A DNA stretch of 64,000 bases, taken from the NCBI GenBank assembly GCA_030062745.1, contig CP099848.1:8143501-8207500 (forward strand), written 5' to 3'. This document shows positions 3,741-47,042 of this stretch, one piece after another (the stretch's first letter is position 1; each line of letters begins with the position of its first letter). A program made the position numbers and the translations under genes. Under the pieces are notes generated by a model. It saw only the letters and a list, made by a program, of their open reading frames with translations. It ran no database searches and was not told where the DNA came from. Source of the DNA: Capitulum mitella. Lineage: Eukaryota; Arthropoda; Thecostraca; Pollicipedomorpha; Pollicipedidae.

Positions 3741-3976
3741 AGCACGTGTTCGGCTGCGGTCACTGCAGCGCTCAGTTCGTGCGCAAGTACGACCGAGACC
3801 GGCACGAGCGGACGATTCACCAGGCGGACGGCGTCGCCTTCAGCTGCCGCTTCTGCCAGCGCACCATCCGCCGGCTGGACAATCTGCACAACCACGTGAA
3901 GCGGCTGCACGGCGAGGCTGCGCTGCTGCAGCTGCGGACCGCGCCGGCCGGCCAGCGGCCGTGGACGGCGCCCTGA
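3741..3976 (+). CDS. Alternative C-terminal zinc-finger exon A (BTB-ZF type)
   Basis: This is a candidate last exon encoding two C2H2 zinc fingers, which would give one DNA-binding specificity to a transcription factor isoform. The acceptor reads CCGGTTTCAG with the exon starting at 3741; two bases (AG) complete a split codon, then CAC GTG TTC. Finger 1 runs from CGHC to H-x4-H with helix RKYDRDR. Finger 2 runs from CRFC to HVKRLH with helix RLDNLHN. Both have spacing C-x2-C-x12-H-x4-H. A 21-residue tail rich in Ala, Pro and Arg follows, then TGA. No BTB domain or upstream coding exon is visible. Its RRLD second finger pairs it with exon B. The plus-strand frame stays open upstream to 3548, but I place the start at the splice site because all nine exons share this phase. 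Confidence 0.85.
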
Positions 3977-5422
3977 CCCGGCGAGCGGAGCGCTGCGTCC
4001 GCGCCGGGCCCCGCGTCGCGGCTGCCCGGCTCATCTGGCGGCCCCGCCACTGCCAGCCAACGGAGTGTCGGCCGACGGCTCTTTTTGGTGCGGTCGCGTA
4101 CTGGAACCGTGATGTGGCCCCTGTCTGGACGTGCGATTTGCCAGACGGATAGTGCTTTCGGAAAGGTGTCGTGGATGGAAAGACGTCAAAGGTGACTGAG
4201 TGATATGTGAGAAAGGGAAGCTTGATTTTGGATGGCTTCGTGGACTGGCTTTGTGGCCGAAATGCGCGGCCTTAGAGAGGCGTGTATCGTGGTTAGTGAT
4301 CCGCGCTCGTCAGAACAGAACGTGGATCCCTGGATTCACATTTGGTCGATTTGCACTGCCAGTACGCGAATATTTCTTTTTTCATTACGTGCAGTACACA
4401 AATGTGAAATGCAACTTGAAGTTCGCACGGCAAAATTGATGTACTCCTTTGTCCATACGCTTGTCGGGGTTATTTGAATTTGCGTGTTTTATTGTGGAAT
4501 TCTGTGGTCAGAATATGTTCAATAGATTATTTCCAGATGTTACAGTTTTTGAATGTGTATGTGTGGTGTGTGGGGGGGGAGGTGTGCTATCAAACGATTT
4601 TACGTAACTGCCGGGCGAATTTCTGTGGTTGGAGTCGTCAGCTTCGGTAGATTCCTGTTTGTTTAAGAGCTAATTTTCCTCTGAAGAGGGCTGGTATTGA
4701 TTGCCACGTCGGCGTTCACCATCGATATAGGTATGCACCAATAATCAGTGCAGTTCCGCTCGCCGTGACTGTCTTATATGGGGCAGAAATGAATCGTTTT
4801 CCGGGCTGGTGCGGGCGTCCGTCACAACACGGGGAGCGGATGCTTCAGTTGGCTCTGTCTGTCATGAACTGAGGTTTCGCAGACAGGGTTGCGCTTCATC
4901 TGCATCGAGCTATTGATTCGCTGGCAAAAACGGTCGTACCCCGCCCTGGATTTGATGAAGTCTGGCCTGCTAGTGTGGCTTGTCTTGCTCCATGATGTTG
5001 TTTCGCGTGTTCAGTTAATTTATGGCAGTCCGACCTGTGATGGACGATGCCCAGGACCATGGGCTTGTTGTCGCATGTTGTTGGGCTTGCTTGTCGCATG
5101 GCGGATGGACCTGGGAATGGGTCCAGGCCTGCCAAGCTCGCGAGAACACTTAGTCGTATCGAACTGGTTCCAACTCCTTGACTAACCTTGGTTCGATTAG
5201 TTTGTAAGGAACCCCGCATATTGAGGAGCAAGAGGTGTTCCTCTTATTCGGGCAGTCCATTTTGGACGAGACACGCAGCGCCCGGGGTCAGCGTGAGAGC
5301 TTCAGCAGCGGTCTGGAGCGTGACGGCACTCGCACCGGGGTTTGGCAATGGCCCGAGGGCAAATGACGTGTGCGCGTCGTGCCGTGGCGGCGTCACCAGC
5401 TGAAGCAGTCATCTGTTTTCAG
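3977..5422. other. Intron/3' UTR of exon A, no gene seen
   Basis: GC-rich sequence continues for about 150 bases after the exon A stop, then composition returns to intron-like. A G run lies at about 4567-4579. The open frames here show no family features. I see no canonical AATAAA near the exon A stop. Confidence 0.45.
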
Positions 5423-5610
5423 ATGTGTTCCTCTGCCGACACTGCGGCGCCTCGTTCGGCCGGCGGCAGAACAGAACGCGCCACGAGAGGGCCTTTCACG
5501 AGAGCCCCACCGACTTTGTGTGTCAGATATGCGGCAAGTCGGTGCGGCGACTTGACAAGCTGCGCGACCATATCCGTAAGGCGCACAGCGGCGGGCCCGT
5601 GGGGCCGTGA
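5423..5610 (+). CDS. Alternative C-terminal zinc-finger exon B
   Basis: Two C2H2 fingers are encoded in a compact last exon. The acceptor ATCTGTTTTCAG ends at 5422 and has the best pyrimidine tract of the set. Two bases (AT) complete the split codon, then GTG TTC CTC TGC. Finger 1 runs from CRHC to the HERAFH end, helix RRQNRTR. Finger 2 runs from CQIC to HIRKAH, helix RLDKLRD. The tail is only seven residues (SGGPVGP) before TGA. The exon lies 1.4 kb after exon A and shares with it the RRLD second finger, suggesting the two arose by local duplication. An annotator could wrongly start this at the GTG or join it to the long GC-rich frames on the other strand. Confidence 0.88.
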
Positions 5611-6807
5611 GCGGGTCGGCCACGCTCGTCTGCGGCTGCCCAGGGCCGGCACAGCTCGGTCTCGACCGGCCGGCCGGGCGAGTCGCGCAGGACCGCGATG
5701 GACTGGCCGGCGGCCGGCTGCGGCGGCCCAGCTGACGGCAGGCACGTCTGCGCTCGGTCCGTGGCGGGTGGTAGCCGTCTTCGTCTTTCGCGGCGGGAGG
5801 CGGCCGCGGTCAGTCGGACGGCCTTGTGGTGGCGGGTGATGGCCGTGACGGCAGCGGCGGCCGCTCGGGCTGGCCGAGGCCGAGCTGCCGTCCGGTGCGG
5901 CCGGCGCGGTACTGGTCCGCGTCGCTGGAGCAAGCGCGGCGGTCTGGCTGTCCGCCGGCCGGGCCGGGTTGTGATGTGAGCTGACGTCAGCGCCTGAGGA
6001 CGGCTGGCTGGCCTCCTGACGCCGGCTGTCGACGAGCCGGGCTAGCCTCTGCCGAGCCGCGGCGGGCAACAGCTTAAGACGTCTCGTGCGTGAACGCGTC
6101 CTGTTTCTCACGGTGGTTGTCGATAAATATTCGTCTGCGTTTTTCTATGTTCTCTGAACTGATTCGAAAGTTGCTTGGCAAATAGACTCCGATAGGCAAA
6201 GAGGCATATGCGTTAAAGCTGTTGACCGTTGCTTGGTGTGATCGTGCACATCAAGCCAGTGCTTGTTATTATCTATGAGACTGACAATTTAGGGTGCAAA
6301 TATATTCGATGACGTGGATTATTTATTTAGTGGTGAGCTAAAGGTTCTCTGGCTACCAGAAAAGCGCACTTTATTCCAAATATCCTGCGCAACAGTCGTG
6401 TGACATGCATACTTCATTGTCAGGTATATCCATTGGCTGGAGATATGAACAATAACTTAACCTTGAAAAGAGAGCTGAAACGGAAAAAACTATGCATGTC
6501 AGCTCTTGCGGCCGTGATGTTTTTGGTGTTGGCAATGCCAACATAACGAAAGATCGCATGTCTGGAGACCATTAGGATATAGCTGAAATAGTTGCAATGT
6601 CGTGACGTCAGGTCATTGCGTCTTATTACCCAGAGTCCGAGAGGGCGCTCCATCGCCGGAATGTATCGTCGTTCCTTACGCAACACTCATGCCACCAGTT
6701 GGACTGAACGACATAGCAATTGAGAAAGCGCACTTGAGCACCCGTCCTTCTGCGTCAGCATACGGATTTCGCTGGCCGGCTGGGTTTGCTGCCGTCCCTT
6801 ACCCCAT
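5611..6807. other. GC-rich 3' flank of exon B, then intron
   Basis: About 400 bases after the exon B stop are very GC-rich and CpG-rich and keep long open frames on both strands, none with a recognisable domain. This fits a GC-rich 3' UTR. From about 6110 the sequence is intron-like with nothing I can name. Confidence 0.45.
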
Positions 6808-7011
6808 GACCATCCCTGACCGGTGCTGTACCGTACCCTGTGACCATCCCTGACCGGCATTGTACCGTACCCCGTGACCACCCCTGACCGGCGCTGTAGC
6901 ATACCACGAGACCATATCCGACCGGCGCTGTACCGTACCCCGTGACCATCCCTGACCGGCGCTGTACCGTACCCCGTGACCACCCCTGACCGGCGCCGTA
7001 TCGTACCTCTG
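6808..7011. repeat. 34-bp minisatellite, about 6 copies
   Basis: Six head-to-tail copies of a 34-bp unit, starting GACCATCCCTGACCGGYGCT, differ at a few sites each. The array ends about 25 bases before the likely branch point of exon C, so it lies in the intron just upstream of that exon's splice site. Confidence 0.92.
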
Positions 7012-7055
7012 GCGGCCCGGCGCTCGGCCCTGCTGACCGGTGCCCTGTTTCGCAG

Positions 7056-7276
7056 GTGGCTCGCTCACGTGCCGGTTCTGCGGGGCTAGTTTCACTAAGA
7101 CCTCGCACAGGGCGCGTCACGAGCGATGCATCCACCTGCGCCAGGCGTCGTCCAGCTGCGCCGTCTGCCGGCGCGTCTTCTCGCGCCAGGATAACATGCG
7201 TGTCCACATGCGCAAAGTGCACGGCGTGGCGCCCGAGGAACTGACGGACAGGCGGGGAGACGGACTCCCGGACTGA
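7056..7276 (+). CDS. Alternative C-terminal zinc-finger exon C
   Basis: Two C2H2 fingers. The acceptor CCCTGTTTCGCAG ends at 7055, with a likely branch-point sequence TGCTGAC about 25 bases before it. Two bases (GT) complete a Gly codon. Finger 1 runs from CRFC to HERCIH, helix KTSHRAR. Finger 2 runs from CAVC to HMRKVH, helix RQDNMRV. The 17-residue tail is acidic to mixed and ends GDGLPD before TGA at 7274-7276. The last codons and the stop are made by the first, divergent unit of the 52-bp minisatellite that follows, so this isoform's C-terminus is repeat-derived. The exon starts the C-G subgroup, marked by HRARHER in finger 1 and SRQDN in finger 2. Confidence 0.9.
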
Positions 7277-8070
7277 GGCGCCGGCTAACGGACTGACGGG
7301 CCCGGAGACGGACTCCCAGACTGAGGCGCCGACTCACAGACTGATTTGCAAGCCGGACACGGACTCCCAGGCTGCGGCACCAGCGGACTTACAGGCCGGG
7401 ACACGGACTTATAGACTGAGGAACCCACTAACAGACTGACTGACAGGTCGGGAGACGGACTCCCAGACTGAGGCACCAACTAACGGATTGACTGACAGGC
7501 CAGGAGACGGACTCCCAGACTGAGGCACCGACTAACGGATTGACTGACAGGCCAGGAGACGGACTCCCAGACTGAGGCACCGACTAACGGATTGACTGAC
7601 AGGCCAGGAGACGGACTCCCAGACTGAGGCACCGACTAACGAACTGACTGACAGGCCAGGAGACGGACTCCCAGACTGAGGCACCGACTAACGGATTGAC
7701 TGACAGGCCAGGAGACGGACTCCCAGACTGAGGCACCGACTAACGGATTGACTGACAGGCCAGGAGACGGACTCCCAGACTGAGGCACCGACTAACGGAC
7801 TGACTGACAGGCCGGGAGACGGAGGCACCGGCTGACAGACAGTCGCTTGGTGAAGGAGTTACGAGCGGGCGGCCTTGCTGGCGAACTGAGTAGAATGATA
7901 GGCTGAATGGCGGAATGACGGACAGAATGACAGACCGCCGGAACGGGAGACGGACTAACGAGCAGATTGACAGACCGGCGGACTCATTGGCGGAATGACT
8001 GACGGATGGAGTGACAGACCGTGGGACCGAATGACGGACCAACGGACTGAATGACGGACCGGCAGAATTG
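7250..8070. repeat. 52-bp minisatellite running from the exon C coding end into its 3' flank
   Basis: Tandem units of 52 bp contain GACTCCCAGACTGAGGCACC. About six units between 7504 and 7815 are nearly identical. Units before about 7450 and after 7816 are diverged and truncated, and related short pieces (GACTGACGGA, GACAGACCGG) continue to about 8070. The array begins inside the exon C coding sequence. Confidence 0.9.
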
Positions 8071-8246
8071 GTAAAATACTGTATCTGCATCTGTACCGTA
8101 AAGTACAGATAAGCACTGCAGTAATAAGCAGTCTGGTTGATGAACAGGCGCGTACTGATTCGAACAGTCATAGATCCAGCGTCGCCGCCGGAAGGAAGTC
8201 GTTTATTTATAACTCGCATGACAGCATGCGCTGCAAAATACCAACA

Positions 8247-8252
8247 AATAAA
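8247..8252 (+). terminator. Possible poly(A) signal for exon C
   Basis: AATAAA is followed within 20-30 bases by a G/T-rich stretch (GTCGTCGTTGTCG). It is the first canonical signal I noticed after the exon C stop, about 970 bases away, beyond the minisatellite. The assignment to exon C is inferred from position only. Confidence 0.4.
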
Positions 8253-12530: not shown

Positions 12531-14186
12531 AATAAAGTATTAACCCATGCTGTCGAAGATTGGTAAAATGCACTTTCCTATTTTACAAATTCCTAGGCGC
12601 ATCAGTGTTATTTATGGTGCTCACATATCTGCGTTGTACTGGTAGTCACACCGGCGCGCAGAGAGCGAAACGTGCTAAAACGAACGGTTCGCATCACATG
12701 CAGTTGCCACTAAATCTGAGGAGCGGAGGAACACCACGCTGATCTTGAGATGTCACCTCAAGGAGAACGGACGCCGCGCTGGACTTCCGCTTCCAGTTCG
12801 ACTTCGCCCAAGCACCAAGCCAGTCTTACTGTCACCGCAGAAGGGCGGGGGAGGAAGTGGCAGGCGGTACCACACACGTCCACCGACTGCTGTGCACGAT
12901 TCCACTTTGCACAGACACTGTTTCGATCTTGAGGGAAGTCACATCGCGGGAGGGAGAGGGGAGGGGACGGGGGCGGACCACATCCTTCCGTTGATCGATA
13001 CCCACAGTTAAGTTTACAGCGCCATACCGATCTTGAAAGTTGGAGAAAGTTTGATTTTGAACAATTGTTTTTTTTTCAAAATCCGGCACCTGTTAGCGTC
13101 TGGCTTAGCCAGAAAGTCTTCACGGCAAACGAACAGATCGACCTTCTTCGAACAACGTCAAGAAAATTGCTTGCTCGTTTTGTCATCGCGATCCTCATAT
13201 TTATTCTGCGATTGCATTTAATAATGTAACAAGCGAGGAATTCGGAATTGGTGCAGAGGCCATAGTTCAACACAGGGCACCGCTTCAGCCCATGCGATTC
13301 AAATATTGGAACAAAGAGAATTCCCTAACAGGCGCACTGATTTGCTTTTCTGCGCAGACACACATATACAGCGCTGTCTCATCACTGGTGCCCCGTACGT
13401 CGCATGCAGCGGTGGCTACCGTATACAGAACTGCCTGTATTACACTGTATTCGACATGTATTTTTACTGTCAGGTCAGACATTGACCTTTGATTTTCCAC
13501 TTCGCGCTGACTGCGGATACAACTTGACACTACACTGTTCGCGCGTGACGTCTTTCGAACAGTTTTCCCGCCAAAATCCACCGACGCCTTTCGTGTCGTG
13601 CATCGCCAGGAACTTTTGACGGCAAATCCACAGACGTTCCCCAAATGGTCCATATGCAAATTCGGCTCGTTCAGTGCGATGTGAAGCTAATGGGCTAGAG
13701 AGCAGGGTTGAATCCTGACCCAACAGTTCCTGCCCTTGTAAGGCTGCTGTTGTTCCGGCTGTTGTAAGTCTGTCGCCCTGTGTTCGGAATGCGCGCGTGG
13801 AGATAGGACGCGCTGAAGACCAGCTATCCACACATTATCGCGGGAAGGTCGTTGACTAACTAGAGTACGGCTTTGTTTGAGGGGACGCGACGTTGTCACC
13901 AGGTCCTCAGACAGGGACGTCTGATGTCTACTCTCTGATGTCTGTCTGGAGGTAAACCCAGCTCCGTTTTGCTGACCCGATCTATTTTGAAGTTACTAAT
14001 TTCCCCTCTCCTTTTGAATCGATCGCTGAAGGCGTGCCGTGAATCTTTGCTGGGCGTTCGGACGTCCTGATTCAAACCTGGCCAACGGGCCGGTGACCGC
14101 GGACGGTCACCGGCCGGCGACTTCTGACCTGTCGCGTGACCAGCGATCGTCGGTGCGTCGTGCTGACGGGTGCGCCCTGTTCGCAG
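12531..14186. other. Intron upstream of exon D, no gene seen
   Basis: There are several open frames in this stretch, but none shows a domain or a convincing splice structure. The last 27 bases hold the conserved block before exon D: TGCTGACGGG and then CCCTGTTCGCAG. Confidence 0.4.
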
Positions 14187-14374
14187 GTGGCGCCCGCTCG
14201 TGCCGGTACTGCGGAGCTTCGTTCGCGCAGGCCGTTCACAGAGCGCGCCACGAGCGCTGCGTCCACGAGCGTCAGAGGGCGTACCCGTGCCCGGTGTGCG
14301 GCCGACCGTTCTCGCGACAAGATAACCTGCGCGTGCACATTAAGCGCCGCCACAATGCGCTGGCACCGCTGTGA
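14187..14374 (+). CDS. Alternative C-terminal zinc-finger exon D
   Basis: Two C2H2 fingers. The acceptor CCCTGTTCGCAG ends at 14186 and GT completes a Gly codon. Finger 1 runs from CRYC to HERCVH, helix QAVHRAR. Finger 2 runs from CPVC to HIKRRH, helix RQDNLRV. The tail is six residues (NALAPL) and ends in TGA. The sequence from RARHERCVHERQRAYPCP onward is almost the same at base level as in exons E and F, so these are recent duplicates or have been homogenised. The intron block before the exon (TGCTGACGGGTGCGCCCTG) is shared too, so the duplication unit included the splice site. Confidence 0.93.
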
Positions 14375-14729: not shown

Positions 14730-16016
14730 TTAATGCTAGGACGCGTTCCGTATAGAGGGCTTAATCGCCCCCCCCCCCCGAGATCTCGAGAATTACCCGT
14801 CGGAGTTCATCGCAACAAACGACAGGTCGATTTGCCATGACGTAAACTAAATTAAAAATGGAATTCTTAAAGAAGTGAAAGGGGTGGATACAGGGACAAG
14901 AACATCAAAAAATGGGTCATTTTTGCCTGTTATAAATCGGATCTTTGCGCATGGATTTTGATGCAAGTGTCATAAATTGAGAGCTAATCGATAGAATTTT
15001 TTCCACTGGCTCATACATGTAGAGTTTTAAGAAAACTTATAGGATTTTACGGAATTTGGAGAATTTAGGATAATTTTTGTTACCGATTTAACATAAAAAT
15101 ATTTGCTAATAATATTTGTTTGGCTTTCGGTGGTCATGTTATACTTCCAAGTACAAAGTTCGTTGCATTGCATACATGGTATCCGCACAGTCGGCGTCAG
15201 AGTCATGAAAAGGTGAACTGTCATGGTCTAATTTTCATCAGGTCAGTTTACGACGTTTGACCTCAACTGACCTCAGATGGCCTCAAAGATACATCGAATG
15301 GCCTTTAGTTCATTCCATAGTTGTTTGAAAACAGTTCCAATACTTTAAATTGACTACATTTTTACGGGTCTTATTTACGGCCGTCGTGATGTAGGCCATG
15401 GGCGTGGACATTTTAGATTATAGCTCCGTGACCCGACCTGATATCCATCTGAAACTTGAATACAAGGTAGAGCGCACTGTGATGGGTCATATCTGTTCAT
15501 AATTCTTTTTTTTCGAAAATTAACTTTAATAATATCTTTATTAAATCCGATCTTGAATTTTGACCTTGACCTGATCTTACATCAACGTCAACAACAACAT
15601 CAACAGACATTTTTTTATCTTATATAGAGTTTCAGGTTACCTTAAAGAAATGGATTTTTGGCAGCCATTTTTCTTTTATCTTTAACAGTGCCAAAAACGC
15701 CTAAGACACCCAAAAAATCGATCTGGCTCTTGTCCTAGGCTATTTCAGATTATGAAAATTTGGCATAATATGTTGGAAGAATTGGTTGGAAAATTTGCCC
15801 AGTTTCGTAGAACTGCTTTAAAACCCTGGGAAATGTTGATAAAAAATTGGAGTGGGCTGCTGAAGCCCATTCCCGTATGGGCACAGAGATAACCAAATTA
15901 TCCTGCGAAATGTGTCATAAGTAATACTTCAGGAAGGAAACAGTCATATTTGACCTTTCCCAGTACCGGGGCAACTCCCCCCCCCCACCGAGGCGTTTCG
16001 TTAGTTGCCCTCTTAA
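14730..16016. mobile_element. TTAA-bounded element 1 (piggyBac-like, non-autonomous)
   Basis: This 1.29 kb element runs from TTAA at 14730 to TTAA at 16013. Its left subterminal block has a C run followed by GAGATCTCGAGAA, as in the inverted right end of element 2. Its body (15100-15860) is collinear with 22640-21945 in element 2 and with 53.6-54.2 kb. The outer ends are degraded: the left reads TTAATGCTAGG, the right in reverse complement TTAAGAGGGC. It has no coding capacity. It carries many AGGTCA/TGACCT hexamers. Confidence 0.65.
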
Positions 16017-17800: not shown

Positions 17801-18072
17801 GTGGCGTCCACGCGTGCCGGTACTGCGGACTTTCGTTCTCCCAGGCTTCCCACAGAGCGCGCCACGAGCGCTGCGTCCATGAGCGCCAGAGGGCGTACCC
17901 GTGCCCGACGTGCGGCCGGCCGTTCTGGCGCCAGGATAACCTGCGCGTGCACATGAACCGATGTCATGGCCTCGCGCTAAGCTGGACTGCCAGGGTCTCA
18001 CGGTCCGGGCCATTGACGGCGAAAATGCCAGTGGCTAGTGATAAAGGCCGATGTGGTGGCGGTTGCACGTGA
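17801..18072 (+). CDS. Alternative C-terminal zinc-finger exon E
   Basis: Two C2H2 fingers. The acceptor CCCTGTTTCGCAG ends at 17800 and GT completes a Gly codon. Finger 1 runs from CRYC to HERCVH, helix QASHRAR, the same as exon F. Finger 2 runs from CPTC to HMNRCH, helix RQDNLRV; the usual Ser before the helix is Trp (PFWRQDN), and the His-to-His spacer is MNRC rather than KRR-like. The tail is the longest of the set, 34 residues, rich in Ser, Lys and Gly, and ends GGGCT before TGA. A distinct tail on a near-identical finger pair suggests that isoform differences may lie outside the DNA contacts. Confidence 0.92.
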
Positions 18073-19599: not shown

Positions 19600-20540
19600 C
19601 TGGCTGCTCAGCGCTCTTGGTAGGATTGGTCTTTCTCCGTTCCTATCCGTTTACGATCCCTTCACACGCTCCGCTCCCCGCATGAGCTGGCCTTGACCCC
19701 CCGCCGGCCCTGTCTCCGAATCCATCTTCGCCGGGGGTTCATGAGAACCGCCAAGATCTCGAGAGCTGTAAATAAGTCCAACCAAAGAAGGAAATCTACC
19801 GTTTGCAAGCCTTTGGTGAAACTAGAAGAAAACAATGTTTTTTCAATAAGGTCAGTTTTAAAGTCACCATTGGTCATTTAAGGTCAAATTACCCTGGTGG
19901 CATTTTGGCAACAAACATTGATAACCAAAGCTTCTATGTGGTTCGAAAGGGGTTAGCGGTAAAAACATTCTGGATTACCTACATGGGGCGGAAAAAAGGT
20001 ATTTGAAATGAAAACTGCCCATTTAAAACAAAGCTGGCAATGAAGGGGAAGAAATCGTCTTGTTGCAGGGACAGGAGACGTGTTTTTTTCCAATTGTGTA
20101 CTAATGTGTTTGGGTTTGAATACGTCACAAATGTGTGACGTGCGTATACAGTCTGCAACTATCAGAGTAAGGTTTAACAAAGTCAGCATAGATCAAGGTA
20201 TTGATGCATATACGTCGTTGGTTTCTGGTGTCTGTCGCATCATCTGCCGCATTACCATTGATCAGACACCACAATACGGCATAACATCATGTAGCATCGC
20301 TTATGTAATATCTCTTCTACATCATGAAACTAGGACCACAAACCATTTTTCACGTAAGTGAAACGCCGGGCGGCAGGCACAGTTGTAATGTAAAAGGCGA
20401 ATATTTGTTGGGGAATTTTTCTTGTGATGATAAAGGTTTATTATTTTGGCCCCCAAAAATTTGGCGGCAGGGACAGCACAAACTGTGCAGGAAAAAGGCG
20501 TGGGTGTAGTTCTTATCAATTGTGGCCGTACAAAACGCGC
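19600..20540 (+). mobile_element. Repeat family 1, second copy
   Basis: Collinear with the reverse complement of 1115-2077 over most of its length. It is followed directly by repeat family 2. The left limit is unclear; strong similarity starts near 19690, at the G-rich block with AAGATCTCGAGAGC. Confidence 0.7.
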
Positions 20541-21879
20541 TTGCATCGGAAACAGGTGGCGACCTTAGCGAAGGATGTATTCCATATATATAAAATAGCT
20601 TTAAGCGTTAACAGATACGTTTTACGTAGCTCAGCTTCGCAGGTTTCGTGATATACTGTGAGCAGTATAATGCAAAACTTATATCAACGTATACATCAGT
20701 TTTTTAAATAGTAGGCATTGAGAGGTGTTTACCGCTAAACTCCTCCTCACATCACATCGAGGAGTCCGATAATGCAGAGCTCTAGTTGTGTTCTGTGCCT
20801 GGTAAGGAAAGTTGTCTCGATGCTTCTGACGTCGTGGATTCGGAGGTCGGAAGTCTAATGGAATTGAGAGAAGTGTGGAGTATGGTACAGTGGCGGCGAA
20901 ACGATTACTGCTGGGGAAAATGCAGAGCTTTAGTTATGTTTGTAGCCTCTTGCCTTTGCCCCTAGCCCCATAGGCGACATCTCTTTCTGTTCTGTCACTC
21001 GCAGCCTCGTTCGTCATCGAAAGTGAAGTCGGTAGTTAAGACCATTGTTGCGGAAGAAGTATTCCTTTCCAGATTGGTCATGCTGGCTTCAGTAAAATGT
21101 AAGGACCTTTTTCTCAGCTCAAGCATTTGAGATATACTTGTAAGCAATGGCCCATAGCAGGGCATCCACACATTAGCGTGGACGACCACAGCATGCTCCA
21201 CATTTGGTTTAAATGTTTAATGAACCGATCGTGGTTTCCCAGTTAGGAAGGTGCTGTTCGAAATGTCTCACGTTCCTTACCCAGAGAAAAGGGTGTGTGT
21301 CGTGGGGAATAACAAGCGTGCGCAGATGTAGCGGGGCTTTACATCCCACCCCTCAGAAGATTTGCCCGTGTTGCGTGACGTGCTACCATGTAACACGACT
21401 TTTGGCCTCTGTGTGCTTCTGGCCTGTTGAATCCAGCCCGCAGAAAAATCAGTGGTAAATCTCTACGAGCCAGTGAGATTGGGTGGCCTGCCCCAAAGAC
21501 ATGGATGCGCTCTCGAGGAAGAGAATGGCGCCCAAAGGAATGCGAAAAAACGATGATGTTCCTGTAGACTTTTTTATATAACTTCATCGCAGTTTTCACC
21601 TGTAATATAGTTGAACACAGGCCGTAAGCTTTTTTTTCGAATCCATTTGAGTTTCCTGTTGAGACTCAAGTACTTAAAGCGATAGGGTAATTGTAATAGG
21701 TCAAGGACATCCTCAGACATAGCAAATGGGGGATGAACCGTAAATCAGGCTATCAGCCCCGCTCTTCCATCAGGTACCTTCTCCCGTTGTTTTAACTCTC
21801 GCCGGACGTGAAGATCTTCACCCAAACGACTGTCGAGTGGGATGTTCACCATCCCGGTCCGTTTCTCCCCTAAACGAGA

Positions 21880-23109
21880 TTAACCTTCCGAAGATAGAAT
21901 TCGTATTCCCGGCAGGGGGCAGAATCCAGCCCCTCGGGTTTTTGTATGCCAGTTCCAGGGTTTTTTAACGCAGCTTTACGAAACTTGGTCACTTTTCCTA
22001 GCTATTCTTCCTACGTTCTGTGGCAAAATTTCGAAATTCTGCTTTGCTCAAGGGCGGAGCCAGGCCACGCTTTTGGGAGGCACCTCAGGCCATTTTTGGC
22101 CCTGTTGAGGGTAAAAGAAAAATGGCTTCCAAAAATAGTGTATTTAAGATAGAACTTAAAACTTTATATGATTCTGTAGCTAAATAGTTGGTCAACATGC
22201 AAATACAAATTTGTTTATCTGAGGTCAATTTACAAGGTCAGGTCAAGGTCAAAAACCAAAGTTTGGTTTTATAGTAATAATTTCGGCGCAATTTTTTTGA
22301 AATGCCAAGCCCGGAATGTATATGTCGTAAAAAGGTGCGTTTTAATTGTGTACTAAGTTTCATCTCAATATTAGGTCAGGTCACTGAGTTTTGACCTAAA
22401 ATGTCAGTGCGCGTGCCCTGTATCGCAATAGCCGTAAAAAAGAATTTTTGAAATAGAGTGGATCCAGATGACTGAAAACGTTTACAGATAATATTAAATG
22501 CACATGAGATCATTCCAAGTGATTCCAAGGTCACTGGGAGTCATTTAAGGTCAAAGGTCACAAGTTGATCTGAAGAGCATGTGACCATGACATTTCCCTC
22601 CCTTTTCATGTTCCTGCCACCGCCTTTGCTAACATTATACAAACATTGTAATACTATTTGTGCTTGTTTAGCATAGCATGACTAGCAGAAGCCAAAAAAG
22701 TGCTTTTACCTTTTTTCTGCATTTATTGTTTGGAAAACTAGTCCTCCTATTTTTGGAACCCTGAGAACGCACATGAATTTTTTCAAAATTTCAAATGTGC
22801 GTATCAATGGTAAAAGTCCTATCCATAATCTCTCGATTCGCGCAGTTTCATTGAAATCGTTCTATAATCAACAGAGTTATAAGAAGTCCAAAAGCACACC
22901 CCATTTCGACATTTTTGCCCCCTGTATCCACCCCTTTCCAAATTTTGAACGTTGTTTTTAAAGAAATGTAGTTCACGTCTTGGCAAATCGATTGCCCTTT
23001 TGTTGCGATAAAATCAAATGTGTAGTTCTCGAGATCTCAGGGGGGCCGAGTCCGCCCCCCCCCCGCCGGGAATCGGTCATACCGTCTAGCCCTCCGGGAA
23101 TAGGGTTAA
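21880..23109. mobile_element. TTAA-bounded element 2 (piggyBac-like, non-autonomous)
   Basis: This 1230-bp insertion in family 2 is bounded by TTAA at 21880-21883 and 23106-23109. The left end reads TTAACCTTCC and, further in, TATTCCCGGCAGGGGG. The right end, reverse-complemented, reads TTAACCCTATTCCCGGAGGG. In family 2 copy 2 the flanks are contiguous (CCCCTAATCAAGACGG then AGCAGAC), which marks the empty site. Duplicated TTAA and a TTAACCCT-type terminus are hallmarks of the piggyBac superfamily. The body is non-coding and matches elements 1 and 6. It holds a perfect AGGTCA-A-AGGTCA repeat at 22548-22560. Confidence 0.82.
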
Positions 23110-23574
23110 GCAGAGAAACAAAGACGAGGGTGCGGCCCATGTTATTGTCTATTTCATTATTACCTACATATTTTCTTTGAACGTTTTGGGTCAAACTGTG
23201 ACGTCTCAGGTTACTGTGAAATAGAATGCTTCCTAACACTTGTCCCACTCGTCATACTTTTTCCGCATTTCGGCTGCGAAACCATGCTTTGAAGCGTTCT
23301 AACATTCCCATCACTGAAATGAAAAACAAAACACACTTTTGAGACTATTCAGAGCCAGTTCGAGATAATTTGATGTCATTGACCTCACTTGAACTCCAGG
23401 AGGTCACTGATTTTTCAAAACACGAAATATATTTCCAATCATGTGTACGTTGAATCATACCCGAAACAATGACTCGATATCTCGTCATATTGTTAGGAAA
23501 AACATAAAATGCATCTTCGATCTAGAAAACGACTTGCAAGCCCTTTAAAATGACGTCAGAGCTCCGAAGCTTGA

Positions 23575-23632
23575 TACGTTGTTACGTTGTTACGATACGT
23601 TGTTACGTTGTTACGCTTGATACGTTGTTACG
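23575..23632. repeat. Short tandem repeat of ACGTTGTT units
   Basis: GATACGTTGTTACGTTGTTAC is repeated imperfectly. This is an expansion within family 2, absent from copy 2. Confidence 0.8.
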
Positions 23633-23769
23633 AAATTTGTTGCAAAAGATGTGTAAAAGAGGTAAGTCCGACACCGCAGATTTCAGTTTCCTGCCTCTAA
23701 GCTGTTTATTGGCAATCTACGAAAAAACCTCATGGGGCACGACAACCCATCCGTCCCGTCCGGCGACGG

Positions 23770-25733: not shown

Positions 25734-26090
25734 CATTACCAGGCTGTCGTCGCCGACTGGAGGTGCGTTTGGTCGCCACGGTCCAGATCTGCGAGGGGTG
25801 GTCATGTTTAGCGCCGGCCTTCAAAGTTGATTTTCATCGGGATAGGGGAATTCCAAACTCAAGTCGGGCATTGTCATCATTTACAACTCTTGGGTGAGAA
25901 GGGTATCTGTGTGGTATCACACAACACGTGCCAAGCCACGTCGCATGGAATCGGGTTTTCGGCGTTGGGGGAGTTATACAATGAAACAGGGCAAAGACGG
26001 AACAGAGAAATATTTTCAAGTGATACTTCATTCTCAACATTCCTCGACTGAGACAGAAACCTACACTGGGACAGAAACGTAAACCTACGG

Positions 26091-28307
26091 CCTATGCGAT
26101 ATGTTGTGATCTTTCTGTGCCCGACATTTTAGTCAGTGTGACTGTTTTGTTTGAAAGCTATTTATAGCTGTTTGTAATCAAACCGTAAGCAGTGTTTAAA
26201 TACTCTATCAAATACCTTGGCGCAAGCGTGTTTAAATGGAAAATAAAAAGGCGGATTCCTCCTTGCAATATTTTCCGCCAGTTTTAACAAAGGAAACGGG
26301 CATATATTACGGAAATGATAGTCGCAGTAGGTAGCAGACAAGCAAAAGGCATACGCCAAAGTTCAGAATGACCTGGAACATGCAGAATAGAAAGTGACAG
26401 ATTTTGTCGTCAGACAGTTCACAATGATCACTGATGTCGTTTTCTTTACGCCTGATAGTGCCAAGACCCCACCTGTAATTATGTGGGCCCTACCAATGTT
26501 TTTTTGATTAAATCGTCATGGCATGCAAAAAGGGAGATGGCGCAAAAACCATGTATAAGGCGGGATGGTACATAGTTGGTAAATGGTAGATAGATGACAC
26601 ATGCGTGCAAAGTTTTTATTAGTTAAACGGCAACAAAAAAACTGTCGTTGGTCAAGACAAAGTGGGCTAAATCCGTTGAGGTGAAGCAGTCGGGCCCCCG
26701 GCTCGAACTTCCCAATCATTTGCACAAGACGACACCACTTCTTCCCCGCGTACGCTTCACGATTGCCGGAGTTTAAGTTATCTTCCTCTGGTGAACACAC
26801 AACTCTAATAAGACTACCGGAACGAACTCATAGAAAGCCGACACGAAACCATATTTCAGCTGGTTTTTGACAAGTTATGCGTTCCACCGCTAGGACGAAG
26901 CTGCAGTAACCAGCTAAGAACTTTTGACCGCATGTCGCATGTCAGGACAGGTTTCGTTGAAAGACTTCTGCAGTGAGGTTTCCAGTTACATCCGGGGCCA
27001 AAATGTCATATGCATACGATGGACACCACGAACACCATGCGCACTAGACAGGCGACACGACCCAGTCAAGATGGTTCAACATTGGATAGCGCCAAGCGCT
27101 TACCGTGCCGTCGCAGGCATTCACAGTTTGTCATCCGATGCAGTAATGTTCAGAGAAAACATGTCTGTATTCCTGCATAAATTGAAATATTGCTCGCTCA
27201 TAAAGATCCGTACCATCTTCGTGTTACGTAAAATGAACTCGCATGTATTAGTATCATGCTTGATGTTCTACAGCTGTTGCGATTTGTACAAGCCTTTGTC
27301 AACAAATATTGCACTTGTCCCAGCAACGCTGCGCAGCAACTTTCTTGTCGACTGCATAGTGGTCTTTTTTGAAGGTCCATGAACATTTAAGTTCAGCTGA
27401 CACAACTCAGCTGACGCACATGTCAACGATATATGTATTATATATATGTCAGTATATATGATACATACGTCTTTATACATGTATATATGTCACATATATG
27501 ATATCTATTTGTCAACGATATATGTAAGTAGCAGACGGCGCAGGCCTGAGCGTAGTCCAGATCCTTTCTGCCTGTCGTCTGGACTGGGGCTTGTTTCGGG
27601 ACCTAAGATCGCATCTCAGGGAGGGGAGGAGGCCAAAGAGACTGATGAGTGTTGACCTCCATGCTGCACAGCTTAACAGTGAATGCAGTCATAATGCTGA
27701 ATATCCAAAAATATTAGAAGAATGTTTGGAAACGTCTTGGAATGGCCTACGTTTTTTTGTACATTCCTACGTTCGGCTTTATGTCTTGCCCTTGTTTTTG
27801 TCCTAAATCAGCATTGTGACAAATCCCTGTCTAACGTACCGTCTGACGTGACATCTTGTGTAACGAACAACATAACGAATGCCGAGATATCACTAAAGTA
27901 CTACTGATGCATCAGTATATCAAGACATCAGCACACGGATTGTATTTCCCAGGAAATTTTGCCCTCAACTAGTGCAGAACCAGCGCGTCATCACTCGTTG
28001 GAGGTCGGCGGGCGATGACCCTTGCGCCCGCTGAAGCTCAAAAGATCTAGTGATCTAGACTGAGCAAACCTCCGCCGGTTAGCTCAGAGTGTTTTTTTTT
28101 TTTTTTTTTGAGGGGACTCCACTTGAATGCAAAACTATGGTGTCCTGAATCTCCGGACTACTGCTCATGTCATTTATTAAAAAGCCCACGATGGAGGCTG
28201 ATTGCCAAGTGGTTTCCATTACATTCACAGCAAAAGCTATGGAAGGTGATTATTTTTGTCTTTTATTAAATAAACCGCGATGCTGACGGGTACACCCTGT
28301 TTCGCAG
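26091..28307. other. Intron upstream of exon F, no gene seen
   Basis: The longest plus-strand frame, 26924-27382 (152 codons), has no recognisable domain. An AT-rich block with TATATG repeats lies at 27425-27530. A run of 18 T lies at about 28092-28109, directly after a tRNA-like 5' half (GCCGGTTAGCTCAGAGTG) with no B box. The last 27 bases are the conserved branch-point and acceptor block before exon F. Confidence 0.4.
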
Positions 28308-28495
28308 GTGACGTCCCCACGTGCCGGTACTGCGGAGTTTCGTTCTCCCAGGCCTCCCACAGAGCGCGCCACGAGCGCTCCGTCCACGAGCGCCAGAGGG
28401 CGTACCCTTGCCCAGTGTGCGGCCGACCGTTTTCGCGCCAGGACAGTCTGCGGGTGCACGTTAAGCGGCGTCACGGCCAGGCTCTGCTCCTCTGA
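28308..28495 (+). CDS. Alternative C-terminal zinc-finger exon F
   Basis: Two C2H2 fingers. The acceptor CCCTGTTTCGCAG ends at 28307, preceded by ATGCTGACGGG, and GT completes a split codon. Finger 1 runs from CRYC to HERSVH, helix QASHRAR. Finger 2 runs from CPVC to HVKRRH, helix RQDSLRV, where the usual Asn at helix position 3 is Ser. The tail is GQALLL before TGA. At base level it is nearly the same as exons D and E across the finger 1-linker-finger 2 junction. A 30-bp minisatellite starts right after the stop. The upstream frame contains an ATG at 28280 inside the intron block, a likely source of false gene starts. Confidence 0.92.
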
Positions 28496-28499: not shown

Positions 28500-28785
28500 C
28501 TGCTCAGATCTCCGAGCGCTGCAGATGGAGAGACGGAATCTTCGAGCGTTGCAGATGGATGAATGGGACGTCTGAGCGCTACAGTTGGAGAGACGGGACC
28601 TCTGAGCGCTGCAGTTGGAGAGTGGGGCCTCTAAGCGCTGCAGTTGGAGAGTCGGGACCTCTGAGCGCTGCAGTTGGAGAGACGGGACATCTGAACGCTG
28701 CAGTTGAAGAGACGGGACGTCTGAGCGCTGCAGTTGGAGAGACGGGAGGTCCGACCCCTGGAGACGGAGACATCTGAGCGCCAAG
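28500..28785. repeat. 30-bp minisatellite directly after exon F
   Basis: About nine units of 30 bp contain GAGCGCTGCAGTTGGAGAGA. The array starts within ten bases of the exon F stop codon and so would be the start of that isoform's 3' UTR. Confidence 0.92.
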
Positions 28786-30230: not shown

Positions 30231-33200
30231 ACGAGACACTGCTCATTGTGAATAAACGTCATAGACACAACATCGTCAAGACGTTTGAGATGATGCGGTC
30301 AAGCCGGAGCCCTATGGCGTCTTCTGAGTGCCATTACATGCAGAATATAGTTTCATGTTGGTGACGGCGCGGAAAACTGTTAATTGTTGTACCGTTTTTA
30401 ACGTCAGATTCCAGAGATGCCGACTTTTCAGAAATAGGCTTGATTAGTTTGAAAAATGTCCCTGATGGTACATTCAACGCCCAGTCTTTGAAAACTCCTC
30501 GAACCATAAAAATATCACTAATTGAAAACTAGATTGCGTAGTCACCTGCCGACGACAAATATATGGGCATTCTGCTGACGTCCATTGGCCGGCTCCCGCT
30601 GGTGACGTCACCCAAACTTTATAAACTGTAACGCTGAATAAAACCCGGGAGAGATTGCGGGAAATGTCTTAAAACTCATGAAACCTTGCCTTTTGAAACA
30701 AAATGTTTATGTGAAAAGGGTTTCTGGGGCCTGAAGCTACAGTGTGATTATTTCAGCGCAAAACAGGCGTTAGAGGACATCCCTTGTGACCCTCGCCTCT
30801 TTTGGTACACGATATTTGGCCACCTTCGATGGTGTACGGTGTTGGTACGACCGCTCCCCACACTCAAGCCTTTTCCGAACTTGGCGTGATAGACCGAGAA
30901 AACAAAAACGGGAAGGCAGGTCGATCTTTTAGCTCCACGATAGCATCCAGTTTGACTGTTTAAGGTCACCCAGTGGCCTTACAGATGACCGGTACAGAGA
31001 CGAAGGAGGTCATGTGAGCGGATTCTGACTTTCTTTGAGTCCTTTTAATCCAATTTAGCGGAACGCAGAAGGCATTTTTCAAGGGCCCAAAATGACTTCT
31101 GATCATAAATAAGGAATCGCATTATCGTTTCTATGCAAACCAGCGTTTCCCATTACACCATGACTCCTTTGATGTCGTAAAAGGCAAAAAAGGTTCAGTG
31201 ACCTCTGTTCAATATTTTGACCTAAGATGACTCGGACCCGGGTACCTAAGAACTACCATAAGGAAGTCGCTGTCGGCATGGGTGACGTCCACGCATAACG
31301 TTTACTTTGACTGAGTACTGTAAAACACTTCCTATTATCCGATGAAGACCGCCGCCGTAACGCGGTTTCCTCATGGCTTTCCTTCGAAAGAGATGGTACG
31401 TCAGTGCCTTGTCGAGTCATGGACTTGAAATTTTGGGAAGATGTGCGGAAAAATTCAAAACTCAGCTAAGCAGATTTCCAGAACAATCAGAGCAGCTGGT
31501 CTAGGTCAGCTTGCGAAAAACACCAGAGGTGTCGCGCCACCACCAACCCGTGTACTGGCGAAGAATCATTTTCTTCTTGAGACTACGGACCACAGGCGTG
31601 GAGACGGTGTGTGGGGGGGGGGAGGGTCCGATGTGGGAGTCCCATAGTTATGGCAGGAATGTCCGCAGTTTATACGCATGATTTCTACAGTTTTGGTGAA
31701 AAAAACGTCGAGTTCGTCCAGGGCAGTGCCGAAATGACGAAACAAGGATGCGTAGGTGAAACTTTTCGAAAAGAAAGTTTGGTGGGGCCAAAGCCGGATT
31801 TTCATCGAAGGCAAAATGTCGTCCCACACATCCCTGGTCTCAGATGGACCCGAAACACTGGTTCATGGTTTGTTCTATCTTAATGTGTTATGACACACCT
31901 ACATCTGTTGATGAAGAAGAGGGCCTGTGATGCAGACTAGTCTGTAGAGGCCAACGTTTTTAGCAAAACCAACATGTTTTTATGTAGACACAACTGGCAT
32001 TCATGTGAAACAAACATTTGGGCCAGGAGACCTAGACAAGTCCTCAAATTAGCTTCGTGTTTGTCAGATTGTTGGGGGTAATGCATAAAAAGCTACTTAT
32101 AATTGTTAAGAGGCATTAAGTCTAGCCAAAGCAGGTGGGGCCAGAATCCGTGTAAAAGGAGCCAAAACGAAAATTTGCGGGGCCATGGCCCCACCAAAAG
32201 TGTAAGGAACTCCGTGCTCCAGGGCCGATGCTTAATGATTTTGCTGTTCTCTTCGAATTTCCTTGATCATTGCACTGGCGCAGCAGAATTGTGAATCCTG
32301 TACAGATTATAGTGTCATGAGAAGTCAGTGTAGAGTACCAATGACCCATGAGTAACCATAACAGTGTTTCGTATACCTGATTTATGTAAGTCCATTTTTC
32401 CAGATGTAATTGCCATTTACACCACCAGACTAGTAGTGATGTGCGAACAGTCGTGTTTTGGGAACATTGAATGGAATTTAGTCCTGATGATATAGTTTAT
32501 GCTTTGTGCTACGCTTGCTTAGAACGAATGCATATATTTAGCGTTTTATTGGCACATGACCTAGTTTCACACGTGTCAGTATTTTCCCCGAACGTGCCGT
32601 GGATTTTTACGCATACCTTGATATAAGATACAATGAAAATGTCCAAGAAGCAGCGTACCGCCAGGCAACCGATTACCGTTTCAATCCATCAAACAGATCC
32701 ATTGGTTGCAGAGCTGTTGAGTTGTGGTCTGATGCTCTCCCCCGCGCCAGTACGTGCAGGGTGGCAGCATATCCCAGAAACTGCCGGTTTAATTTTCGCA
32801 CTACGAGGGGGCCTGTTGGGCCCCGTGCCTCTTTTCTGGCCACCTCAGGAAGGGGGAACGAGCAGCTGGATGAGCTTTGGGTAATTACGTTATATTTATT
32901 GTTTATATTTTGAGACACATTACAGTGCTTAGTTATATCTGCTCACGGAGACAGAAGTCATTTTCAAAATCCTGTTCTGTGATTTTAGGCTTTTCTCACA
33001 GACTAGCGTGTTACTTATTCAATAAGAGGCCGACGCTTGCAACCAGATTGACCAGAGATGTTCTTGAAGGCCCCATGACCTCTGGTGATATTTCAGAGGT
33101 TAAGTAAAGTCAGCTACCCGGTTTAAGTTTTTGGTGTTTCCGATCATTTGAAATATGGTACTGGTGGTACAAACGACAGTAACCCCCTCTTTGATCGTGG

Positions 33201-34008
33201 AGGTCACGAAAATGTCGCAGGTCGGGTCACATCAGTTTGGGACGGAACATTGCGCTTTTATGGCAATTTGCTACCGACCTACCAACCACTCGGCCTGCGC
33301 ATTGAACCTAACGTAAAGTCATTATAGGTTTCGAAAGGAGGGTTCGTAGGTAGAAACATGATTAGAACCGTTGATTGGCATTCACCTGAAGTGCACTTCA
33401 TCAAATGTAGTTCAGTCGTCAGAGACACAAAAAATGACCATTTCGGCTGTGCTCTTCTAGTTTGACCAGGAGCACGGTATCAGCCGTAAGAGCTGCATAT
33501 AAATATCTTTTTTGTGTGAGTACAAACGACGAGCAGTCACATTGCGTGTGTCCGTCTGCGCGCTCTATCTGACTTAGTTGTTTAGCATAGCTAAGCTAAG
33601 CTTAGCTCAACGACCAGGAAGGGGTGGATCGCTTCCCACGCCATCCGTAGGCCACGCTAATAAAAAGATGTATGTGGCGAAGGTTTAAAAGCAAACATTA
33701 AGCCCCAGCTTTTTGGACCAACAAATCTGTACATCCCAGAACTGGATATCGGGTGCCTAAGCCCAATGACCTTGTATTCGAAATGCCCCAAACTCCATTT
33801 TGTCTGGATATCCTTCCTTTGCCAGCACTTTGTTTCCTGACAGATTTGTAACTGTTTTATTGCATATTCAGTCAAATGTTTTAATGGATTGCTTTTGGAG
33901 CCCTCGGATTCTGTCTTCTCCTCTAACATGGCGGATAGATAGAATGACCAAGTCATGCTCGCTGGCCTTGCTGCGGAGCGTTCCTGACGGGTGCGCCCTG
34001 TTTCGCAG
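30231..34008. other. Intron upstream of exon G, no gene seen
   Basis: No convincing exon. Frames at 32599-32913 (plus) are open for about 100 codons without a family match. A G run lies at 31610-31624. Further AGGTCA-type hexamers are scattered at about 30965, 31205 and 33060-33235. The last 27 bases are the conserved block before exon G (CCTGACGGG, then CCCTGTTTCGCAG). Confidence 0.4.
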
Positions 34009-34208
34009 GTGGTGCCCTCTCGTGCCGGTACTGCGGAGTTTCGTTCACTCAGGCCTCTCATAGGGTGCGCCACGAGCGCTGCGTCCACGAACGCCAAAAG
34101 GCGTTCACCTGCGCGGTCTGCGGCCGCCAGTTCTCACGCCAAGACAACATGCGCGACCACATGAAGAGGCGACACAGCTTCAAGCCGCCGGGCGTCGGCG
34201 ACGCCTGA
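34009..34208 (+). CDS. Alternative C-terminal zinc-finger exon G
   Basis: Two C2H2 fingers; a simple ATG-based scan misses this exon. The acceptor CCCTGTTTCGCAG ends at 34008 and GT completes a split codon, then GGT GCC CTC TCG TGC. Finger 1 runs from CRYC to HERCVH, helix QASHRVR. Finger 2 runs from CAVC to HMKRRH, helix RQDNMRD. The ten-residue tail (SFKPPGVGDA) ends at TGA, 34206-34208. It belongs to the C-G subgroup but is more diverged than D, E and F: its linker reads ERQKAFT instead of ERQRAYP, and helix position 6 of finger 2 is Asp as in exons H and I. Confidence 0.93.
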
Positions 34209-35802: not shown

Positions 35803-37078
35803 TTAACCCGGCATTGACTGGGGTATTTTGCCACCTTCCATTGACTGCGGGTGGGGCGTTTAACGCCCCTTATATATCTCAAAAACCAATGGCCCGATTT
35901 GGATGATTTAAACGGCAATCGACAGCACGGGTCCGTGCGATCTTGTGACACATTATTTTTTTTAACTCAGGGTCACTGATAACGTCACAGATCAGGTCAA
36001 ACACCCTTAAATGATCCTTTTGTCCAGATTTGCCTGATCACAATGGAAAACAGACTGAGACTGACGTTTCGATGGTAATTTATCTCAAGAGGCTTGGTGT
36101 AATATGCTGAGTACTACCTGACTCAAGGTCATCAAAGGTCAAGGCCACAGGCTAGGTCAAATGTCACGTCTGTGCTAACGGGCCATGTTATACATGTTTC
36201 CAGCTTAATTTGACACGGGGATTCCAAAAAAGGCTCTTTAAAAGAGCTTTGGAACACAGGTAAAGGGTTTAAAGGGCTCTGATTGCCGTGCATTTGTAAT
36301 ATTGCAACATTTTGCACTTTGAAATTCGGAGTAACGCAAACACATTAGTGACCTCGATCTGGAGCCTCCGGACGACCCAACAAGTCAGTTTGGCTCTCGC
36401 TGCACACTTTCACGTCACGTCATGGAATGCTACACAAAATTGCAAAGACCAGTACTTCTACATCGGTCACCAGGAGCGTCAGACACCGCAAACTTACTCA
36501 CTAAGCTGACATTGGTACAGAACTACCAAGAATCAAACCGTAAACAAGTGCTGCATTGTTGCAAGAGCCTGCCGCATGAGTTCTCCATGCAATATCGTTA
36601 TAACCTTTGAATTACACATCTTATCATCCCGGACTGGAAAAACCTCTTTTGTATCGAACATCATCGAAATGCCTTCCTATTTTCCCTCCTTCTCATGTAC
36701 ATATCATCTAAAATTCAAAATTCCTACATAAATATTTGACCTAAGATGACCTAGTGTGGGGTCACGGGTGATGTTCATTGACCTCTCGTCGTTATGACAT
36801 ACAAAGCAAGCCACCGTCGCCATGCCGAACAATTTTAATTATAACCATGAAACGAGGTAAAATTGTGCGTCAAATCACAAAACATGGTTGTCTTTATGAT
36901 GTCATATTGACATGACCCAGGGTGACCTTGATCACCAAATTTTGTCGGTATGTGCGAATTAATGTAAAAAAAACTACTGAGAGTTTCAACGCGCAGCGGT
37001 CACTCATTTCGGAGATATTTAGAAAATGCGCCAGCGGGAGGGGGCGTTAAACGCCCCCACCATTCAGTGGCAGGTTAA
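35803..37078. mobile_element. TTAA-bounded element 5 (piggyBac-like, strong inverted ends)
   Basis: This 1276-bp element is bounded by TTAA at 35803-35806 and 37075-37078. The left end reads TTAACCCGGCATTGACTGGG. The right end, reverse-complemented, reads TTAACCTGCCACTGAATGG. About 50 bases inside the left tip lies the perfect palindrome GGGGCGTTTAACGCCCC (35853-35869), repeated in inverted form near the right tip (37041-37057). The body matches 54280-55040. A direct pair AGGTCA-TCAA-AGGTCA lies at 36126-36141. Non-coding. Confidence 0.85.
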
Positions 37079-39751: not shown

Positions 39752-39984
39752 ACGTCCGGCCGGGCCAGCACCGCTGCCAGTACTGCGGCGCCGGCTTCAG
39801 CATGAACTGGCTGCGGCGGCGCCACGAGCGCTCCGTGCACGAGAACCTGAACCAGCACGTGTGCCACGTGTGCAACAAGTCCTACTCGCGCAAGGACTCG
39901 CTGCGGGACCACATCCGGCGCTATCACGGCTCGGAGATGCTGGCGCCGGGCGGTCCGCAGCCGCGGCCGTATGGCGCCGTCTGA
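39752..39984 (+). CDS. Alternative C-terminal zinc-finger exon H
   Basis: Two C2H2 fingers. The acceptor GCCTGTGCCCGCAG ends at 39751 and AC completes a split codon, then GTC CGG CCG. Finger 1 runs from CQYC to HERSVH, helix MNWLRRR. Finger 2 runs from CHVC to HIRRYH, helix RKDSLRD. The 18-residue tail is Pro/Gly-rich and ends PYGAV before TGA. With exon I it forms a subgroup with NWLRRRHERS in finger 1, differing from the HRARHER subgroup. The acceptor block differs from that of C-G, with no TGCTGACGGG motif directly before it, consistent with an older split. Confidence 0.92.
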
Positions 39985-43333: not shown

Positions 43334-43367
43334 CACCCAGTAACTGGGTGTCTCCAGTTACTGGGTG
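43334..43367. repeat. Small hairpin
   Basis: CACCCAGTAACTGG and CCAGTTACTGGGTG are perfect inverted repeats around a 6-base loop. Confidence 0.9.
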
Positions 43368-46284: not shown

Positions 46285-46830
46285 TGGCCTTTTTAATGCG
46301 CAATGATGGTGCTGTAAGTAACCCCGCCTTTTTTCTGTGCAGCGGCAGTGTTTTCTGTCTGTATAGTATGCCTTTTTAATGTGCAGAGACAGTGCTCTCT
46401 GTATAGCGTGCCACTGCACACTTTTTATTAACGTGCAATGACAGTGTTTCCTGTCTGCCTAGTCCCCTCTTTTTTAATTTGCAATGGCAGTCTCTCTGTC
46501 TGTCTGTCCGTCTGTCTGTCCGTAAAATCCGCCTTTTTAATGCGCAGTGACAGTGTTCTCTGTCCGTAAAGTCCGTCTTTTTTAACGCGCAGTGGCAGTG
46601 CTCTCTGTCTTCATACTCTGCCTTTTTTAATGCGCAGTGACAATGCTCTCTCCCTCTCTCTCTCTCTCTCTGTATAGTCCTTTTGAGTACGCAGTGGCAG
46701 TGTCCTTTGTCTGCATACCCCGCCTTTTTTAATTCACGGTGACAGTGTTTGCAAACTCTGTCTTTTTAAATGCGCGGCAGCAGTGTTCTCTGTCCGTAGG
46801 ACTGGCCTTTTTAAATGCGCAGTGACACTG
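46285..46830. repeat. Degenerate tandem repeat before exon I
   Basis: About ten imperfect units of roughly 40-60 bp contain TTTTTAATGCGCAGTGACAG followed by TGTTCTCTGTCTG. A (TC)n run lies near 46645-46670. The array ends only about 20 bases before the splice acceptor of exon I, and its CT-rich end may supply that acceptor's pyrimidine tract. Confidence 0.88.
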
Positions 46831-46848
46831 CTCTCTGCCCGTCCACAG

Positions 46849-47042
46849 TCCTGCAGCCAGCCAGCAAGTTTCGCTGCCAGTACTGCTGGATCGGCCTCTC
46901 CTCGAACTGGCTGCGGAGACGGCACGAGCGTTCCATACACGAGCTGCGAGACAACCTCCGCTGCCCCAGCTGTCAAAAGGCCTTCTCAAGGACAGACAAC
47001 TTGCGCGACCACATGCGCCGCGTTCACCGCGCAGCGACGTGA
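46849..47042 (+). CDS. Alternative C-terminal zinc-finger exon I
   Basis: Two C2H2 fingers; the last exon of the array in this window. The acceptor CTCTGCCCGTCCACAG ends at 46848 and TC completes a split codon, then CTG CAG CCA. Finger 1 runs from CQYC to HERSIH, helix SNWLRRR; the residues after the second Cys read WIGLSS, so the usual Phe is Leu. Finger 2 runs from CPSC to HMRRVH, helix RTDNLRD. The four-residue tail RAAT ends at TGA. A second AG eight bases downstream (CTGCAG) would give another phase and is less likely. It is the sister of exon H. Confidence 0.9.

Follow-up and report, generated by a model that had tools for sequence, protein, structure and literature searches.

Transcription factor genes with alternative zinc-finger ends behind a constant BTB domain, the BTB zinc-finger (BTB-ZF) genes, are well described in arthropods. 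In Drosophila lola (longitudinals lacking), many alternative C-terminal zinc-finger exons lie behind one constant BTB part, and 20 isoforms are listed, 17 of them with different C2H2 ends (PMC11426971); a further account gives them a mixture of C2H2 and C2HC fingers, one or more per isoform, with three isoforms fingerless (PMC1947980). The Broad-Complex combines its BTB domain with one of six finger types, Z1-Z6 (PMC4175664). For fruitless, five alternative 3′ finger exons are described, with distinct motifs from systematic evolution of ligands by exponential enrichment (SELEX) for its isoforms A, B and C (PMC3852243), each isoform having two fingers of its own (PMC7027472), and fruitless-like isoforms of shrimp are reported to arise by mutually exclusive exons (PMC8858584). 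Here we analyze a stretch of 64,000 nucleotides (nt) from Capitulum mitella (contig CP099848.1, positions 8,143,501 to 8,207,500; the whole stretch is hereafter the window), in which nine exons, A to I, each encoding a pair of C2H2 fingers, are very probably the alternative 3′-terminal exons of a single gene, the arrangement found in arthropod BTB-ZF genes. The array illustrates a known design well and does not represent a new one.

A six-frame search of the window for two successive fingers of the form C-x2-C-x12-H-x4-H returned nine pairs, all on the + strand between positions 3741 and 47042, and no pair of this strict pattern on the − strand, whereas 40 order-2 Markov simulations of the window gave no pairs and four single fingers in total. 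Single fingers number 19 in the window, 18 of them within the pairs; the other match, solitary at 32507-32572 (+), likely occurs by chance. Each pair is followed by a private tail of 4-34 residues and a stop codon, which is TGA in every case. Nine exons of this composition, spread over about 43 kb of one strand, had been described in the first-pass annotation of this DNA, whose outer bounds of 3741 and 47042 are equal to ours. The exons are listed below from acceptor to stop.

3741-3976, + strand: terminal exon A, finger pair, tail GEAALLQLRTAPAGQRPWTAP, stop TGA; the most divergent of the nine, with a weak acceptor score and the A of a CTGA motif at −21
5423-5610, + strand: terminal exon B, finger pair, tail SGGPVGP, stop
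7056-7276, + strand: terminal exon C, finger pair, tail GVAPEELTDRRGDGLPD, stop
14187-14374, + strand: terminal exon D, finger pair, tail NALAPL, stop
17801-18072, + strand: terminal exon E, finger pair, private tail of 34 residues, stop
28308-28495, + strand: terminal exon F, finger pair, tail GQALLL, stop
34009-34208, + strand: terminal exon G, finger pair, tail SFKPPGVGDA, stop
39752-39984, + strand: terminal exon H, finger pair, tail GSEMLAPGGPQPRPYGAV, stop
46849-47042, + strand: terminal exon I, finger pair, tail RAAT, stop; rival AG at 46823 and no CTGA

The curated Pfam cut-off for zf-C2H2 is cleared by eight of the nine exons, A scoring 22.3 against a cut-off of 25.2. In a Pfam scan of all + strand frames (expectation value, E, of 0.05, or 0.1 for 1-3740) the only matches were to these same fingers, in eight exons (A being missed at this setting), with a weak zf-Di19 match over the fingers of H. 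A profile derived from these exons, circular as proof of those nine and informative for a tenth only, found no tenth copy: the next match had E = 0.16, compared with 7.8e-27 for the weakest of the nine. The exons have a G+C content of 62-70%, vs. 45-60% in the 500 nt upstream. Two tandem arrays adjoin them, one at 7240-7823 (a 52-nt unit and its multiples) whose longest row starts inside the tail of exon C and extends downstream, and one at 28514-28751 (a 30-nt unit) immediately after exon F.

Read as sequence anatomy, the array comprises multiple putative terminal exons with fingers and a stop of their own, in one phase and on one strand, and it looks built to work like lola, fruitless and Broad, an assignment at the level of kind that names no single orthologue. 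It contrasts with lola in consisting of nine uniform C2H2 pairs, with no BTB domain seen in the window, and exceeds the five finger exons of fruitless; from the Broad-Complex, to which it is likened by description and not by finger sequences, it differs in having nine ends, among which C-G look like one expanded type. Transcription would proceed on the + strand from upstream of the window. With 3.7 kb of sequence to the left of exon A, the constant 5′ part and its expected BTB domain would lie off the window on that side, upstream of base 1, and this part would end in a phase-1 donor. This donor would be joined to one of the nine acceptors, one finger exon per mRNA, and each exon would supply two C2H2 fingers, a short private tail and the stop. 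The product of each mRNA would thus be a transcription factor that self-associates and carries one of nine DNA-binding ends. If this is true, annotation should show one gene with nine ends and not nine genes; gene finders can miss short terminal exons of this kind. The nine exons would also form a natural series in which to ask how many ends of this kind a single constant part needs, and whether exon duplication alters DNA specificity or only splicing and expression.

A phase-1 CAG acceptor lies 11-26 nt before the first Cys codon in all nine exons. No other AG lies within 30 nt of that codon in C-G, while A, B, H, and I have further AGs within this distance, some in other phases. Using acceptor and donor matrices built from general splice-site frequencies (the donor matrix being generic), the top-scoring AG over the whole open frame, with phase ignored, coincides with the chosen acceptor in seven of nine exons. 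As C-G are close paralogues, the agreement of phase among nine is nearer to five independent observations. The earlier statement that all nine have an acceptor in the same phase stands for the presence of a phase-1 CAG; the acceptor of A is weak, and that of I has an equal rival.

Eight of the nine acceptors are preceded by a branch-like CTGA whose A lies at −20 to −23, compared with a background in which CTGA occurs with its A in the wider range of −16 to −30 before 331 of 3595 AGs in the window; a binomial figure for this excess takes the nine exons as independent and is thereby overstated. Exon I has no CTGA, and inspection by eye finds GTGA with its A at −24. In C-G the motif reads CTGAC, the textbook form of the branch site. 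The segment from this motif to the acceptor forms a short module, found by sequence comparison and most simply given for exon G:

33985-34008, + strand: 24-nt branch-like-to-acceptor module of exon G

Copies with two mismatches precede exons E (ending at 17800) and F (ending at 28307), the copy of D (14164-14186) is one nt short, and that of C is looser. Identity among E, F, and G is 92% over these 24 nt and 16-24% in the region 31-80 nt upstream. In the pairs of these three exons the module identity of 0.92 compares with proportions of synonymous differences (pS) of 0.31-0.54, but a comparison with fourfold sites is significant in one of six pairs (D/G, p 0.003; the other five p 0.07-0.29), which is no more than suggestive of an intron module kept more tightly than synonymous sites.

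Downstream of the fingers there is little that could serve as a donor. With the generic matrix, the best GT from the fingers to the stop reaches a score of 1.0, and no GT anywhere in the nine exons exceeds 4. This bears on the idea that fingers A to I are joined serially into one multi-finger protein, an arrangement that the shared entry phase of all nine exons would permit; with a stop 4-34 residues past the fingers in each frame and no good donor before it, we regard serial joining as extremely improbable.

Relationships among the exons are consistent with local duplication, pairwise identity being 71-87% within D-G, 60-65% between C and D-G, and 60% between H and I, and close paralogues being map neighbors for C-G and H-I. 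The tree groups H with I (93/94), leaves five of seven inner branches unresolved, and carries a long-branch warning. BLAST similarity within D-G starts 25-36 nt before the acceptor and stops at or before the finger end or just beyond it, a pattern like that of tandem duplicates old enough for their introns and 3′ ends to have drifted. The fingers of D-G are under purifying selection: pooled pS is 0.41 and the proportion of nonsynonymous differences (pN) is 0.10, with the order reversed in 0 of 2000 codon bootstraps. As pN is so far below pS, at least the D-G fingers are kept as protein.

The same observations can be set against the possibility that the array consists of nine small zinc-finger genes, duplicated in tandem, each with its own promoter and with one or more short 5′ exons hidden in the intervening spaces. 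There is room for such exons, since 1.4-10.2 kb separate each stop from the next acceptor, and in exons E, F, and I the stretch from the upstream stop to the fingers includes an in-frame ATG. However, the other six have none, no other + strand Pfam domain was found in the spaces (short 5′ exons with no domain would escape such a scan), and TATA-like and initiator (Inr)-like motifs are not consistently enriched in the 1 kb upstream of the nine exons, a result that is uninformative by itself. Moreover, BLAST similarity within D-G ends at most 36 nt before the acceptor, so that there is no visible sign of a private 5′ exon or promoter having been duplicated with each pair. Nine separate genes therefore appear quite improbable.

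A related question is whether the finger exons, belonging to the same array, are transcribed as separate pre-mRNAs and spliced in trans to one that carries the constant part, a mechanism documented for lola and mod(mdg4) (PMC4667647, PMC11426971). The latter gene resembles the array as proposed here in joining constant BTB exons to a large set of variable ends, with no fewer than 31 isoforms reported, but differs in that its ends carry FLYWCH domains and not C2H2 pairs, and in that some of the Drosophila variable exons lie on the opposite strand (PMC4667647). Identity of the array with mod(mdg4) itself was rejected, Pfam finding C2H2 and no FLYWCH in the nine exons or the + strand frames (the − strand of 3741-47042 lay outside that scan). 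All nine exons being on one strand, cis splicing suffices here; no consistent local promoter-like signal was seen, and a mod(mdg4)-like gene of Daphnia is reported to be cis-spliced (PMC4667647). We accordingly think joining in trans unlikely and expect the nine ends to be joined in cis to a shared 5′ exon. On these grounds (phase, branch-like motifs, donors, ATGs, and selection), alternative terminal exons of a single gene constitute the best-supported reading, as the first-pass annotation had proposed in likening the locus to lola and broad and in counting one gene with at least nine isoforms; the part of that likeness that concerns a BTB domain and a constant exon found no counterpart in the window.

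In C2H2 fingers, residues at helix positions −1, 3, and 6 read bases. For finger 1 these are R/D/R in A, R/N/R in B, K/H/R in C, Q/H/R in D, E, F, and G, M/L/R in H, and S/L/R in I; at position 2 of this finger, D carries V and E-G carry S. In finger 2, R at −1 and D at 2 are shared by all nine, position 3 is N in six exons, S in F and H, and K in B, and the residue at position 6 is V (C-F), D (B, G, H, and I), or N (A). From these residues we predict a similar half-site for finger 2 throughout and about six kinds of half-site for finger 1. D and E, which also agree in the −1, 3, and 6 residues of finger 2, should bind alike, and F and G nearly so. As the finger-1 residues are common to D-G, nine ends need not mean nine specificities, and the isoform count is not to be taken as a count of DNA specificities. 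A stronger form of this idea would be that D-G were amplified with constant finger-1 residues at these positions and the near-identical 24-nt module, new exons chiefly diversifying, through splicing, tail, and 3′ untranslated region, the place and time at which an almost constant DNA specificity acts, and not the specificity itself; it is weakened by finger 2, which has S at position 3 in F and D at position 6 in G, and we consider it rather doubtful.

The solved family member used for comparison is the finger pair of tramtrack (2drp), which shares the double C-x2-C-x12-H-x4-H spacing and a finger-2 helix of the form R-x-D-N. The marks by which we recognized a tramtrack-type pair, namely this spacing with R at −1 and D at 2 of finger 2, are present in all nine exons. 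BLAST identity to 2drp over the finger pair is 24-37%, and the tramtrack linker is one residue longer than in eight of the nine, that of exon A being equal in length. Tramtrack itself has few alternative ends. A structural model of exon F (mean predicted local distance difference test score, pLDDT, 78.9; predicted template modeling score, pTM, 0.44) has 2drp as its top Foldseek match, a weak one (E 0.0033, template modeling score 0.39).

Several results weigh against one gene with nine alternative ends. A BTB domain was not found by Pfam on the whole + strand or on the − strand at 1-3740 and 47043-64000, tblastn with a Ttk-type BTB query on both strands of the whole window reached a best E of 0.91, and no constant exon was recognized within the window. 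The initial observation that no BTB domain is seen was confirmed for this extent, and membership of the BTB-ZF class is consequently something that we infer; Ttk-type BTB domains are reported from arthropods only (PMC11426971). The acceptor evidence is uneven: with phase ignored, A and I would take another AG in another phase, the acceptor of A, weakest of the nine, stands at the 65th percentile of AGs in the window and is outscored by four other AGs of its open frame, and the rival AG of exon I at 46823 scores 3.2 vs. 3.1 for the chosen one. Neither AATAAA nor ATTAAA occurs in the 3 kb that follow the stops of A, E, and G; over that distance the other six stops are followed by at least one such hexamer, at approximately the background density of 0.66 per kb. 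Poly(A) hexamers were set aside as uninformative. No fold match reaches 0.001, and ADR1 comes next after 2drp at 0.0068. By sequence, 2drp is 54th among 60 PDB matches listed for exon D and is absent from 51 PDB matches at E 1e-10 for the profile; designed and many-finger proteins outscore Tramtrack in such searches, which fail as a family discriminator. Selection on H-I is weaker than on D-G (pS 0.47, pN 0.29, pN/pS 0.61, reversed in 65 of 2000 bootstraps). Finally, A and B are not clearly like their map neighbors, A being 37-42% identical to all others and B closest to H (50%), and the tree groups A with B (97/90, under the same long-branch warning); similarity tracking map order throughout was thus rejected, as it is true for C-G and H-I and fails for A and B.

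The position of exon A raises the possibility that some of the nine exons are decaying or unused, A being the likeliest, and that the working number is below nine. Its score under the Pfam cut-off, the weakest acceptor, and the low identity to all other exons would agree with decay, and in the beetle Broad-Complex described in PMC4175664 no isoform has an intact Z5. On the other hand, A retains all its zinc ligands, an open frame, and a CTGA at the usual distance, which leaves decay somewhat unlikely, and nine alternative ends of one gene the preferred reading.

Outside the array, Rfam (at gathering score) and tRNA searches of the window found nothing, and a search for relatives of exon D in viral contigs, made with D alone, gave 34 pattern matches, none confirmed. 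An Exo_endo_phos_2 match at 56767-57033 (−; E 2.7e-9, above cut-off) marks the endonuclease-reverse transcriptase fragment of a non-long-terminal-repeat retroelement, and a weak RVT_1 match at 584-985 (−; E 0.0019, below cut-off) is perhaps a retroelement remnant, the coordinates of both having been derived by hand. Five blocks of 145-1298 nt, 71-77% identical and in opposite orientation, relate 20608-26247 to 47986-54195 and suggest old copies of interspersed repeats. Weaker pieces related to these (64-67% identity) pair 1134-1920 with 19733-20518, 14773-15829 with 21955-23045, 14954-15466 with 53533-54049, and 35873-36485 with 54302-54933.

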